64,000 nucleotides of DNA from Actinotalea endophytica (lineage in GTDB: Bacteria; Actinomycetota; Actinomycetes; Actinomycetales; Cellulomonadaceae): contig NZ_JAOVZU010000001.1 in the NCBI RefSeq assembly GCF_025717005.1, forward strand, positions 186,001 through 250,000, read 5' to 3'. The notes below the pieces were generated by a model that ran no database searches, was not told the DNA's origin, and saw only the letters and a list, made by a program, of their open reading frames with translations. Of the stretch, positions 10,422 through 16,599 are shown one piece after another (within the stretch, counting starts at the first letter, position 1; every line of letters begins with the position of its first letter). The translations under genes were made by a program, and so were the position numbers.

Positions 10422-10916
10422 ATGGCTGGTGACACCGTCATCACGGTGATCGGAAACCTGACCGCGGACCCGGAGCTGCGCTTCACGCCGTCCGGTGCGG
10501 CGGTCGCGAACTTCACCGTCGCGTCGACGCCGCGTTCGTTCGACCGTCAGTCCAACGAGTGGAAGGACGGCGACACGCTGTTCCTGCGCTGCTCGATCTG
10601 GCGCGAGGCGGCCGAGAACGTCGCGGAGTCCCTGACCAAGGGCACGCGGGTGATCGTCCAGGGCCGGCTCGTCCAGCGGTCCTACGAGACCCGTGAGGGT
10701 GAGAAGCGCACCGTGGTCGAGCTGCAGGTCGACGAGGTCGGCCCCTCGCTGCGCTACGCCTCGGCCAAGGTGACCCGCGCCCAGCGCTCCGGCGGTGGCG
10801 GTGGGTTCTCCGGCGGTGGCGGCGGTGGCGGCGGCGGCTACGACGCCGACCCGTGGGCCACGTCCGCACCCTCGTCGGGTGGTTCGTCGCAGCAGTACGA
10901 CGAGCCCCCGTTCTGA
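10422..10916 (+). CDS. ssb: Single-stranded DNA-binding protein
   Basis: A 164-residue SSB starting [25 protein letters not shown], with the OB fold covering about residues 1-120, a Gly-rich flexible linker and the acidic tip DEPPF, the conserved docking sequence for replication and repair partners. It binds ssDNA as a tetramer. It is the primary SSB by position between rpsF and rpsR, 28 bp after rpsF. Confidence 0.97.
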
Positions 10917-11228: not shown

Positions 11229-11681
11229 ATGGCGAAGCTCATCCTCACCCACGAGGTCACCGGCCTCGGCACCCCTGGCGACGTCGTCGAGGTCAAGGAC
11301 GGCTACGCGCGCAACTACCTGCTGCCGCGCGGCCTGGCCACGACGTGGAGCAAGGGCGCCGAGAAGCAGATCGCCGGCATCCGCAAGGCCCGCAAGGCCC
11401 GTGAGATCGCGACCCTGGAGGACGCCGCCGCCGTGCGGACGCAGCTCCAGACGCAGGTCTTCACGATCGCCGCGAAGGCCGGTGCGAGCGGCCGGCTGTT
11501 CGGCGCGGTGACCACGTCCGACATCGCCGAGGCGGTCACCGCCGGCGGTGGCCCGGCGATCGACAAGCGCAAGGTCGAGATCGGTCAGCCGATCAAGGCG
11601 ATCGGCGACTACCAGGTGCAGGTCCGCCTGCACGCCGACGTGTCGGCGCAGATCGACGTGCGGGTGGTCCCGGAGGCCTGA
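11229..11681 (+). CDS. rplI: 50S ribosomal protein L9
   Basis: A 150-residue L9. The N-terminal rRNA-binding domain has the signature [21 protein letters not shown]; a long connecting helix (about 50-75) leads to a C-terminal domain beginning near [21 protein letters not shown] 11229 follows GAGAGGAGAGA, 14 bp after the rpsR stop. Last gene of the operon; the UUCG hairpin 20 bp past its stop ends it. Confidence 0.97.
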
Positions 11682-12347: not shown

Positions 12348-13703
12348 TCAGACGCCGGTGCGCATCCAGGCGGTGCCGCGTGCGCGCAGACCGGTCGTCG
12401 CGGCGCGGGCCGCCATGAACAGCCCACCGAAGGCCAGCCACGCCCACACCAGCCCGGTGGGGCCCGGCGGTGCCCATGTGCGCACGGCGAGCGCTGCCGG
12501 TGCGTACACGGCGAGCGTGAGCATGCCCACCCAGGCGAGGTAGCGCCCGTCGCCCGCGCCGATCAGCACACCGTCGAGCACGAACACCCACCCGCTCATC
12601 GGGAGCATCAGCGCGACCAGCCAGAGCGTCCAGGCGATCGCCTGGTGCACCGCCGGGTCGTCGGTGAACAGCCGTGCGAGCGGCCACGCGGCGACCGCGA
12701 CCAGGGCGCCGAGCACGGCTCCCCCGGCCACGCCCCAGGTCACCGTGCGCCGGAGCACCCCCCGGACGGCACCGACGTCGGCGGCGCCGAGCCGCTGGCC
12801 GACCAGCGCCTGCGCAGCGATCGCGAGCGCGTCCAGGGCGAAGGCGGTGAAGCCCCAGATCGACGCCACCGCCTGGTGGCCCGCGAGCGCGACGGTGCCC
12901 AGCCCGGCGGCGACCCAGGTGGCGAGCAGGATCGCGGCGCGCAGCGAGACCGTGCGGACCAGGAGCGGTGCGCCGGCGACCACGGCTCCGCCGAGCCCGG
13001 TCGCACCGGGACGCAGCGGGACGCCCTCCGGCCGGGCCGCACGGACCACCACGGCGCCGAGCACGAGGGCCATGAGCAGCTGGGTGACGGCGGTGCCGAG
13101 GCCGGAGCCGGCGACCCCCATCCCGAGTCCGAGCACGAGGGTGACCGAGAGGATCGCGTTGAGCGCGGCGCCCGCCCCGGCGACCCACAGCGGGGTGCGG
13201 GTGTCGAGCAGGCCCCGCAGGACGCCGGTCGCCGCGAGGACGAGGAGCATCCCGGGCAGGCCGGGGGCCGACCAGCGCAGGTACGTCACGGCGGGCGCGA
13301 CCACGTCCGCGGGTGCTCCGAGCGCCGACGCGAGCGCCGGTGCGGCGAGCCACAGGCCGACCGCGAGCACCGCGCCGAGCAGCAGCCCGAGCCACATGCC
13401 GTCGACGCCCTGTCGCAGCGCGTCGCGCCGGTGGCCGGCGCCGATGCCCCGGGCGACCTGCGCCGTGGTCGCGTACGCGAGGAAGACGCACAGCCCGACG
13501 ACCGTGGTCAGGACGGTGGACGCCAGCCCGAGCCCGGCCAGCGGGGTCGTGCCGAGCGTGCCGACCACGGCCGAGTCGACGAGCACGAACAAGGGTTCCG
13601 CGACCAGCGCGCCGAAGGCGGGCACGGCCAGAGCGAGCACCTGGCGGTCCAAGGAGCGGACACCAGCTGGGACGTTTTGTCCATTTGGCGAACTTCTGGC
13701 CAT
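12348..13703 (-). CDS. MATE family efflux transporter (DinF-like)
   Basis: A 451-residue integral membrane protein with about 12 helices. The start MARSSPNG...LDRQVLALAVPAFGALVAEPLFVLVDSAVVGTLG matches the DinF branch of MATE exporters, including the conserved VPA and the DSAVVG helix. It exports cationic or other toxic compounds using ion gradients. Position upstream of dnaB and next to the rpsF operon is a gene order I associate with actinobacterial replication-origin-proximal regions. Starts at ATG 13703, diverging from dnaB. Confidence 0.92.
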   Translation of the reverse strand: MARSSPNGQNVPAGVRSLDRQVLALAVPAFGALVAEPLFVLVDSAVVGTLGTTPLAGLGLASTVLTTVVGLCVFLAYATTAQVARGIGAGHRRDALRQGVDGMWLGLLLGAVLAVGLWLAAPALASALGAPADVVAPAVTYLRWSAPGLPGMLLVLAATGVLRGLLDTRTPLWVAGAGAALNAILSVTLVLGLGMGVAGSGLGTAVTQLLMALVLGAVVVRAARPEGVPLRPGATGLGGAVVAGAPLLVRTVSLRAAILLATWVAAGLGTVALAGHQAVASIWGFTAFALDALAIAAQALVGQRLGAADVGAVRGVLRRTVTWGVAGGAVLGALVAVAAWPLARLFTDDPAVHQAIAWTLWLVALMLPMSGWVFVLDGVLIGAGDGRYLAWVGMLTLAVYAPAALAVRTWAPPGPTGLVWAWLAFGGLFMAARAATTGLRARGTAWMRTGV

Positions 13704-13998: not shown

Positions 13999-16599
13999 GT
14001 GAGCATCGAGGAGCTCGAGCGCGGCCTCCGTGGACCGGAGTTCGAGCGCACACCTCCGCAGGACCTCACCGCCGAGCAGAGCGTGCTCGGCGGCATGATG
14101 CTCTCGAAGGACGCCATCGCCGACGTCGTCGAGCACCTCAAGGGCCAGGACTTCTACAAGCCCGCCCACGAGCTGGTCTACGACGCGATCCTCGACCTGT
14201 ACGGCCGCGGCGAGCCGGCCGACGCGATCACCGTCTCCGCGGAGCTGACCAAGCGTGGCGAGCTCGGCCGGGTCGGCGGGGCGCCGTACCTGCACACGCT
14301 GATCTCGATGGTGCCCACGGCGGCGAACGCGGGCTACTACGCGCGGATCGTGCGCGAGCGGGCCGTGCTGCGCCGCCTGGTCGAGGCCGGCACCCGGATC
14401 GTGCAGCTCGGGTACGCGACCGACGGCGGTGACGTCGACGAGCTGGTGAACACCGCGCAGGCCGAGGTGTACGCGGTCACCGAGCAGCGCACCAGCGAGG
14501 ACTACCTGCCGCTCGCGGACATCCTCAACGGCACGATGGAGGAGATCGAGGCCGCCGGGCACCGCGGTGAGGGCATGGTCGGTGTGCCGACCGGCTTCAT
14601 CGAGCTGGACCGGCTGACCAACGGCCTGCACCCGGGCCAGATGGTCGTCCTCGCGGCGCGTCCGGCCATCGGCAAGGCGCTCGCGCTGGACACCCCGCTC
14701 CCGACCCCTCGCGGGTGGACGACCATGGGCGAGGTCCAGGTCGGCGAGACGCTGATCGCCGCCGATGGAACGCCGACCCGTGTGGTGGCCGCGACAGAGG
14801 TCATGGTCGACCGGCCCTGCTACGAGGTCACCTTCGACGACGGGGCGGTGATCCTCGCCGACGCCCAGCACGAGTGGTTCACCGACACCCGCGCGTCACG
14901 ACGGGCGCGGCAGGAGGCGGGGCCGAACGGTGAGCCCCGCGTGCGTGGCGCGATCCGGACCACCGAGGAGATCGCCGCGACGCTGCGCTGCTCGTCGGCT
15001 GACGGCCGGCTCAACCACTCCGTTCCGACGGCCCACGCCCTGGACCTGCCTGAGTCCGCCCTGCTGGTCGAGCCCTACGCCCTCGGCGTCTGGCTCGGTG
15101 ACGGCCACAGCGCCTCCGCGCGGTTCACGTCCGCGGACCCGGAGATCGCGATGCGAATCGAGAGCCGTGGTCTGCGATCGGTTTGCACGCGGGCGAGCGA
15201 TGGCCGGACGTACTCCATCCAGCTCCCGGCGGAGATCGAGCCCGAACCGCGCACGTGCGTGGTCTGCGGGGCGGCGTTCACCAATCCGCGACGCCAGGTG
15301 CGCACGTGCGGGCGTTCGTGCGGCGGTCGGGCCCGGGGCGTCGGCGAGGCGGTTGCGGCCCTGTGCCCGGACTGCGGAGGGCCGAGCTCCGGACTGCGCC
15401 GGTGCCAGGACTGCCACGCGCGCTACGGCACCGTTGCTGGGCGTCTGCGGACGCTTGGCGTGCTCGGCGCGAAGCACATCCCGACGGAGTACCTGCGGGC
15501 CTCGGAGGCGCAGCGTCGGGATCTGCTCGCCGGCCTGCTCGACACCGACGGCACCGTCAACCCGACGGGCAGCGTCCAGATCACCCTGACCGAGGTGCGG
15601 CTGGCCGAGGACGTCCGCGAGCTCGTGCACTCGCTCGGGTACCGGACCGGCTGGTCGACTCGCCAGGTTCAGGGCCGCGACGAGGCGCACAGCACGGCGT
15701 TCACGGTCACGTTCACCACGGATGACGAGGTCTTCGCGCTGGAGCGCAAGAAGCTCGCGCACAAGGAGCGCCGACGCCCGTCCACGCCGCGGTTGCGTTC
15801 GCGCTTCATCACATCGGTGCGTCGCGTTGCGTCGGTGCCGGTGCGTTGCGTCGAGATCGACCACCCGGCCCACCTGTACCTTGCCGGCCGGACGATGGTG
15901 CCCACCCACAACTCGACGCTCGGCATCGACATCGCACGTGCGGCGTCGATCAAGCACGGCATGACGTCGGTGATCTTCTCGCTCGAGATGAGCCGGAACG
16001 AGATCACCATGCGCATGCTCGCGGCCGAGGGGCGGGTGCCGCTGCAGAACATGCGCAAGGGCCAGATGCGCGACGAGGACTGGCAGAAGCTCGCCTCGAC
16101 GATGGGCAAGATCTCCTCCGCGCCGCTGTTCATCGACGACTCGCCGAACATGTCGCTGATGGAGATCCGGGCCAAGTGCCGCAGGCTCAAGCAGCGGCAC
16201 GACCTCAAGCTCGTCGTGATCGACTACCTGCAGCTGATGAGCTCGGGCAAGCGGGTCGAGTCCCGCCAGCAGGAGGTCAGCGAGTTCTCCCGCGCGCTCA
16301 AGCTGCTCGCCAAGGAGCTCGAGGTCCCGGTCATCGCGATCTCGCAGCTCAACCGTGGCGCGGAGCAGCGCACCGACAAGAAGCCGCAGCTGTCGGACCT
16401 GCGCGAGTCCGGCGCGATCGAGCAGGACGCCGACGTCGTGATCCTGCTGCACCGTGAGGACGCCTACGAGCGGGAGTCCCCCCGCGCAGGCGAGGCCGAT
16501 CTCATCGTCGCCAAGCACCGCAACGGCCCGACGGACACGATCGTGGTGGCCTTCCAGGGTCAGTACGCACGGTTCGTCGACATGGCGCCTGCGATGTAG
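13999..16599 (+). CDS. dnaB: Replicative DNA helicase DnaB, intein-containing precursor
   Basis: An 866-residue precursor; removing the 412-residue intein (residues 227-638) leaves 454 residues, normal for DnaB. GTG 13999 follows AAGGGGACAG. The extein halves carry the N-terminal collar domain (DLTAEQSVLGGMMLSKDAI), the P-loop split as ARPAIGK / STLGID, Walker B region LVVIDYLQLM, and the C-terminal SQLNRGAEQR and RESGAIEQDADVV motifs. DnaB is the hexameric helicase that unwinds DNA at the fork. Splicing is required to rebuild the Walker A motif, so an unspliced product should be inactive. It is probably monocistronic; only a weak hairpin (16607-16620) follows. Confidence 0.97.
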   Translation: MSIEELERGLRGPEFERTPPQDLTAEQSVLGGMMLSKDAIADVVEHLKGQDFYKPAHELVYDAILDLYGRGEPADAITVSAELTKRGELGRVGGAPYLHTLISMVPTAANAGYYARIVRERAVLRRLVEAGTRIVQLGYATDGGDVDELVNTAQAEVYAVTEQRTSEDYLPLADILNGTMEEIEAAGHRGEGMVGVPTGFIELDRLTNGLHPGQMVVLAARPAIGKALALDTPLPTPRGWTTMGEVQVGETLIAADGTPTRVVAATEVMVDRPCYEVTFDDGAVILADAQHEWFTDTRASRRARQEAGPNGEPRVRGAIRTTEEIAATLRCSSADGRLNHSVPTAHALDLPESALLVEPYALGVWLGDGHSASARFTSADPEIAMRIESRGLRSVCTRASDGRTYSIQLPAEIEPEPRTCVVCGAAFTNPRRQVRTCGRSCGGRARGVGEAVAALCPDCGGPSSGLRRCQDCHARYGTVAGRLRTLGVLGAKHIPTEYLRASEAQRRDLLAGLLDTDGTVNPTGSVQITLTEVRLAEDVRELVHSLGYRTGWSTRQVQGRDEAHSTAFTVTFTTDDEVFALERKKLAHKERRRPSTPRLRSRFITSVRRVASVPVRCVEIDHPAHLYLAGRTMVPTHNSTLGIDIARAASIKHGMTSVIFSLEMSRNEITMRMLAAEGRVPLQNMRKGQMRDEDWQKLASTMGKISSAPLFIDDSPNMSLMEIRAKCRRLKQRHDLKLVVIDYLQLMSSGKRVESRQQEVSEFSRALKLLAKELEVPVIAISQLNRGAEQRTDKKPQLSDLRESGAIEQDADVVILLHREDAYERESPRAGEADLIVAKHRNGPTDTIVVAFQGQYARFVDMAPAM
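14677..15912 (+). mobile_element. Class 3 intein with LAGLIDADG endonuclease in DnaB
   Basis: 412 residues between Lys226 and Ser639 of the DnaB precursor. Residue 1 is Ala, not Cys or Ser. The class 3 W-C-T triplet is visible: block B His65 and Trp67 (AQHEWF), block F Cys391 (VRCVEID), block G Thr410 before the terminal His411-Asn412; the +1 residue is Ser. The homing endonuclease shows two LAGLIDADG motifs, ALGVWLGDG (135-143) and LLAGLLDTDG (283-292). Between them sit two cysteine clusters, C194/C197/C211/C215 and C230/C233/C243/C246. Third-position G/C is visibly less strict than in the exteins (GTT, CGA and GAA codons appear), consistent with horizontal spread. Confidence 0.93.

Follow-up and report, generated by a model that had tools for sequence, protein, structure and literature searches.

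Does the intein that interrupts dnaB in this Actinotalea genome serve its host as a control point on replication under redox or metal stress, as the original prediction proposed, or is it a mobile element? The stretch of DNA analysed (the window) comprises 64,000 nucleotides, and within it the reading frame of dnaB is uninterrupted from a GTG at 13999 to 16599 (Table 1). Upstream lie ssb (10422–10916) and rplI (11229–11681), and the MATE transporter gene between them and dnaB is encoded on the opposite strand. At window positions 12676–12768, inside the MATE transporter gene, ARAGORN reported a minus-strand tRNA-Pro (ggg), which is probably a false positive. The predicted split of the Walker A motif was confirmed: the insertion point lies between Lys and Ser (...RPAIGK/STLG..., the slash marking the junction), which is DnaB insertion site b. 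A genome-wide search with Pfam DnaB_C returned one DnaB, in two pieces flanking the intein, and no second DnaB; a third, weak match elsewhere in the genome (E 5.6e-5) is an open frame of 536 aa that we take to be RadA-like. Since this single DnaB is split at Walker A, the P-loop of the helicase would require splicing, in agreement with the predicted dependence of helicase activity on it. Third-position G+C was 0.896 in the intein and higher in the two exteins, at 0.960 and 0.961.

Table 1. Features of the intein-containing dnaB gene (positions in the window; residue numbers from the first intein residue).
Feature	Position	Strand	Basis
DnaB N-extein	13999..14676	+	GTG start, ends in Walker A ...RPAIGK; TIGR00665 spans the whole protein
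Class 3 intein (412 aa) at insertion site b of DnaB	14677..15912	+	Translation, PDB alignment, structure model, 182 relatives
Cys48, equivalent of the M. smegmatis DnaBi1 redox partner Cys48	14818..14820	+	phmmer alignment; Cys in 172/182 and in 129/143 sampled viral inteins
Trp67, block B, W of WCT	14875..14877	+	Aligned to solved inteins; invariant 182/182
Homing endonuclease domain, residues ~91–366	14947..15774	+	Pfam matches, PI-SceI best structural match; bounds by eye
LAGLIDADG motif 1, Asp142 at 15100–15102	15076..15111	+	By eye and from model; column counts
First zinc-finger-like unit, Cys194, 197, 211, 215 (CVVC...CGRSC)	15256..15321	+	Cys conservation; weak DZR_2 and PHROG 1271 matches
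Second zinc-finger-like unit, Cys230, 233, 243, 246 (CPDC...CQDC)	15364..15414	+	Cys conservation; weak DZR_2 and PHROG 1271 matches
LAGLIDADG motif 2, Asp291 at 15547–15549	15523..15552	+	Pfam, column counts
Cys391, block F nucleophile, C of WCT	15847..15849	+	Aligned to solved inteins; invariant 182/182
Thr410, block G, T of WCT	15904..15906	+	Aligned to solved inteins; invariant 182/182
DnaB C-extein	15913..16599	+	Starts with the +1 Ser of Walker A, includes stop

The intein begins with Ala1 and ends in ...THN412, followed by Ser at +1, and the predicted extent and the numbering of Ala1, Trp67, Cys391 and Thr410 agree with the translation. The intein was searched against the PDB using phmmer, which gave 6rix (E 6.6e-43, ungapped over residues 1–79 and 377–412), 6riy (E 3.7e-42, ungapped over residues 1–79 and 377–411) and 6bs8 (E 2.4e-39, ungapped over residues 1–83 and 377–412). 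In these alignments to characterised class 3 DnaB inteins Trp67, the block F Cys and the block G Thr are in register far beyond chance, so that the three residues fall in blocks B, F and G as had been predicted. Position 1 is neither Cys nor Ser, and the structure model has the HINT fold of solved class 3 inteins. The class 3 assignment is thus well supported by the sequence, the alignments and the model; the dependence of the P-loop on splicing is likewise well supported, by the insertion site and the single DnaB.

Relatives were collected from 248 loci, comprising 225 with an intein at the DnaB site, 15 empty sites and 8 unparsed loci (L003, L065, L166, L167, L187, L196, L207 and L208), the last being outside the 182 distinct intein sequences obtained. 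These 182 were collected because they resemble the window's intein, so they are not a random sample, and some of their genomes may contain assembly errors. Residues Ala1, Asp62, His65, Trp67, Cys391 and Thr410 were invariant in all 182; the preceding GK, His411, Asn412 and the +1 Ser were likewise found in 182/182, partly by construction, as the extraction pattern demanded GK, H[N/Q] and S/T/C at the junctions.

The class 3 signature is already known, and the arrangement is that of the published M. smegmatis DnaBi1, its redox and zinc model included. M. smegmatis DnaBi1 (PDB entries 6bs8 and 6own), which the available text of PMC6195587 places at this same P-loop site, and M. chimaera DnaB-1 (6rix and 6riy) carry the class 3 residues at the same positions. 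The Actinotalea model superimposes on these inteins with an rmsd of 1.2–1.8 at 62–65% identity over 125–130 residues; their aligned chains share Cys48, and the equivalent of their zinc-binding Tyr is present in the Actinotalea intein. They are, however, mini-inteins with chains of 139–146 residues and no endonuclease, in line with the description of mycobacterial DnaB-b inteins as endonuclease-free in the text available from PMC5050341, whereas the Actinotalea intein has 412 residues and contains a LAGLIDADG domain with a zinc-finger-like module.

This middle region was overlooked in the original prediction, which had the splicing residues right. Two LAGLIDADG motifs were recognized, each with an acidic residue (Asp142 and Asp291), and the second half of the domain scored above the Pfam cut-offs for Hom_end (residues 276–350, 26.9 bits, cut-off 21.1) and LAGLIDADG_3 (residues 280–327, 24.9 bits, cut-off 22.5). 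The best structural match over the whole intein model was PI-SceI; the PI-SceI/VMA1 intein (1vde, 1lws and 1lwt) uses class 1 splicing. It also lies in another host gene and, in the text available from PMC7282813, has no zinc finger. Between the two LAGLIDADG motifs of the Actinotalea intein, at residues 194–246, eight cysteines form the pattern CxxC-x13-CxxxC followed by CxxC-x9-CxxC. These paired CxxC-type knuckles have conserved putative ligands, all eight Cys being retained in 99 of the 100 relatives with an insert of at least 60 aa. The module matched DZR_2 and PHROG 1271 (phage HNH endonuclease) weakly and its best E value in a sequence-profile search of the PDB was 0.012, also weak. The module was not assigned to a known domain: searches of Pfam, PHROGs, PDB profiles and folds yielded at best weak matches to any named zinc family or solved fold; the DNA of the module had no match among phage sequences. 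Because the module folded alone reached a pTM of 0.42, its modelled architecture is tentative and its absence from fold lists excludes nothing. It most likely represents the DNA-recognition part of the endonuclease.

The same eight-Cys module was seen in L166 and L167 (1501–2808), where class 3 inteins lie in another P-loop ATPase (GAGK/S, conjugation-ATPase-like by reading); such an element may be able to move from one Walker A motif to another. L187 (1501–2697) has a class 3 intein at GSGK/SFSY of a helicase-like protein, with one Cys unit in the module position. In L212–L220 the DnaB-b inteins are 486–501 aa long and combine the eight-Cys module with an additional segment that follows block B, near residues 81–107 of the window's intein.

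By length and Cys content, the 182 inteins comprise 99 with the full eight-Cys module, 15 with a partial module, 54 with no module Cys but an endonuclease remnant and 14 mini-inteins (<150 aa). With minis excluded, both catalytic Asp residues were kept in 93 of the 99 inteins with the module and in 32 of the 69 without it or with part of it (Fisher p 3.5e-12, ignoring kinship). Trees were built by fast methods from sampled sequences that share ancestry: an intein tree without the module and catalytic columns, and an extein tree in which 15 empty alleles were joined to 178 of the 182 inteins, the other four being omitted for their short exteins. At least 36 changes in the state of the module are needed on the intein tree, and 47 on the extein tree; gain and loss are not distinguished in these counts. 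Independent pairs were compared on supported branches. On the intein tree (22 pairs) module and catalytic residues differed in the same direction in 6.5, in the opposite direction in 0.1 and not at all in 15.4 (median p 0.031, range 0.002–0.375); on the extein tree (26 pairs) the corresponding values were 9.4, 0.1 and 16.4 (median p 0.004, range 0.0002–0.18).

Constraint was estimated as median dN/dS over pairs with dS of 0.1–0.9, the pairwise values being mutually dependent. Inteins with the module (2205 pairs) gave 0.31 for the splicing domain, 0.32 and 0.34 for the endonuclease and 0.38 for the module; those without it (1497 pairs) gave 0.33 for the splicing domain and 0.52 and 0.59 for the endonuclease. 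The module-less inteins that keep both Asp residues (326 pairs) gave 0.29, and 0.31 and 0.34, respectively. Remnants have differing break points (e.g. L060, L169, L177, L223, L225 and L226), which indicates deletion. These comparisons support the view that the module has been lost again and again and that its absence accompanies decay of the endonuclease. The module thus tends to go with a functional-looking endonuclease, while some endonucleases seem to be constrained without it: as 32 of the 69 keep both Asp residues and the endonuclease of that subset is constrained, the module may be dispensable for a time or altogether. A decay series at a single site, from module and endonuclease through remnants to a mini-intein, would make the homing cycle directly testable.

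We consider it likely that the window holds a full-length, probably homing-competent class 3 intein in which the module would help to recognize the empty site. The presence of a LAGLIDADG endonuclease with a zinc-finger-like module points to a probable mobile element and not to a domesticated switch. Judged from the chemistry of the family and the invariant residues, splicing would start with attack of Cys391 on the Lys–Ala1 bond; the chain would then move to the Walker A Ser and Asn412 would cyclize, leaving a seamless GKST P-loop. The released intein would act as a PI-SceI-like LAGLIDADG endonuclease, the zinc-finger-like units helping it to recognize an empty dnaB Walker A site, into which the intein would spread by homing. 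Once the module is lost, the comparative data suggest, the endonuclease tends to decay, leaving remnants and finally endonuclease-less mini-inteins as in mycobacteria. The splicing part would stay constrained because dnaB must be spliced.

The main alternative, that of a host-adapted switch in which a Cys48–Cys391 disulfide or zinc on Cys391 pauses maturation of DnaB, and so replication, under stress, is a possibility that we regard as doubtful. It draws on the published behaviour of DnaBi1, the splicing domain of which shows 62% identity to the Actinotalea one across 125 residues. According to the text available from PMC6195587, oxidation of DnaBi1 forms a Cys48–Cys118 disulfide and splicing was lost in every Cys48 mutant tried; that available from PMC7360933 places bound zinc at C118/V119/Y128. 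The Actinotalea intein has the corresponding residues Cys48, Val392 and Tyr401 alongside the catalytic Cys391. The predicted redox or metal control at Cys391 is plausible. Of the 182 DnaB inteins, 172 have Cys and 10 have Thr at residue 48; at residue 401, which corresponds to the zinc ligand Tyr128, 170 have Tyr and 12 have Phe, and at residue 392 the counts are 170 Val, 11 Ile and one Leu.

The part of the prediction that made this a host control point was weakened by two observations. Firstly, Cys48 is found in viral class 3 inteins. These were picked by block A or LAGLIDADG patterns among the best 80 of 580 and the best 80 of 592 relatives in two scans, a biased sample of 143 distinct inteins from 159 loci. 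Cys48 was present in 129 of the 143 (72 of 76 in a smaller subset), about as often as the block B Asp62 (127 of 143), with variable neighbours at 46 and 47, and many of the host proteins, not all of them identified, are probably something other than the replicative helicase of a cell. As it is common across the lineage, viral inteins included, its presence is no sign of host tuning. Cys48 is widespread in the class 3 lineage, contrary to the label 'non-conserved' given to it by its discoverers in the text available from PMC6195587, and is an old residue whose part is probably structural or catalytic.

Secondly, the ten natural Thr48 alleles (eight with the module, one without it and one mini-intein) represent at least three state changes on the intein tree, and in six of the seven such genomes examined the DnaB that the intein interrupts is the only DnaB_C helicase, while the seventh (G093) encodes a further one. 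These alleles lack the published disulfide partner and presumably must still splice; with them it could be tested cleanly whether the redox 'toggle' acts as a switch or is incidental. Congeners, moreover, manage without the intein, which matched in seven of the 19 genomes of the genus; in 11 of the remaining 12 the site was seen to be empty. We infer that old class 3 chemistry would bring with it, as a by-product, any redox or zinc sensitivity at Cys391/Cys48, and that this would not be a switch built for this host. The text available from PMC6195587 contrasts a responsive intein without an endonuclease with an unresponsive one bearing it, whereas the Actinotalea intein pairs a splicing domain of the responsive type with a full endonuclease.

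The endonuclease could already be dead and the whole insert fixed baggage, which appears unlikely. In favour of this, no recent transfer of the window's allele was seen: within the genus all seven inteins fall into a single clade (SH-aLRT 97.6), and between the window and the six congeners the inteins share 75–80% identity but the exteins 87–92%, so that a recent transfer is not supported. Against a dead endonuclease, both LAGLIDADG Asp residues, the eight Cys and the open frame are all kept, and the endonuclease in the module-bearing group has a median dN/dS close to that of the splicing domain. Intein matches, counts of which include inteins in other genes, were obtained in 99 of 221 genomes of the family and 119 of 394 in a class-wide sample, and occupancy, which changed at least 11 times on the extein tree when the 15 empty alleles were included, is patchy, in favour of homing. 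Among the pairs, compared without the window's row, whose inteins are closer to each other than their exteins, the 15 listed have margins of only 0.02–0.08, and nine of these involve L057. In this locus (Mycobacterium sp. PO1) the DnaB is divergent and its DnaB-b intein has all eight Cys, in contrast to the described mycobacterial mini-inteins; it is a possible case of transfer or of a mobile-element dnaB.

That the module is instead a metal sensor of splicing, acting perhaps through allosteric coupling and lying as it does in a protein whose close relative splices zinc-sensitively in the text available from PMC7360933, is very improbable, as it is absent or incomplete in 83 of the 182 inteins, all with W, C and T intact, and as its absence tracks decay of endonuclease residues and relaxed constraint on the endonuclease while the splicing domain stays constrained. 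We give little credence, too, to a combined scheme in which homing would be licensed by zinc-charged fingers and DnaB would be held unspliced when Cys391/Cys48 binds zinc or is oxidized, one metal or redox state deciding between replication and spread of the element.

With the module read as part of a homing endonuclease, a parallel is provided by the yeast HO endonuclease and the WHO elements, likewise intein-related LAGLIDADG proteins with CxxC zinc fingers; in HO, zinc-finger residues are needed for cutting (PMC7282813, in the text available). In HO and WHO the fingers are C-terminal, motif G is missing and there are no exteins and no splicing, whereas in the Actinotalea intein the finger-like units are internal, and block G, the exteins and all splicing residues are present. 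The available text of this 2020 paper describes HO and WHO as the sole known intein–zinc finger fusions in any organism; against that statement stand 99 of 182 splicing-competent-looking inteins with a zinc-finger-like module in their LAGLIDADG endonuclease. The open-access literature as available yielded no account of zinc fingers within inteins that splice, nor of DnaB inteins from Cellulomonadaceae, which is no proof of novelty. The splicing chemistry is of a known kind; zinc-finger-like units within the DNA-cutting domain are an unusual combination for an intein.

Phage class 3 inteins include those of terminases (TerL1-c/e in the available text of PMC5050341), and the WCT triplet was found in all 143 sampled viral relatives. 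In 19 of these the LAGLIDADG motifs flank one CxxxH...CxxC unit (e.g. L256, L263, L272 and L284), and the pattern used for a CxxC...CxxC unit matched none of the 143. The viral single units suggest that finger-bearing LAGLIDADG endonucleases may be a wider feature of the class 3 lineage.

An earlier paper (PMC1635734) names some 17 species of eubacteria, together with a giant phage, as carriers of DnaB-b inteins, zinc being unmentioned in the available text. In L207 and L196 the dnaB gene has the intein or a junction in more than one reading frame, from a frameshift or an assembly error. A second intein later in DnaB, Cys-first after ...RESG and class 1-like, was seen in L061, L069 and L075. 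In L010, L049, L053 and similar loci, Cellulosimicrobium included, the spliced Walker A motif would be GKSV and not GKST.
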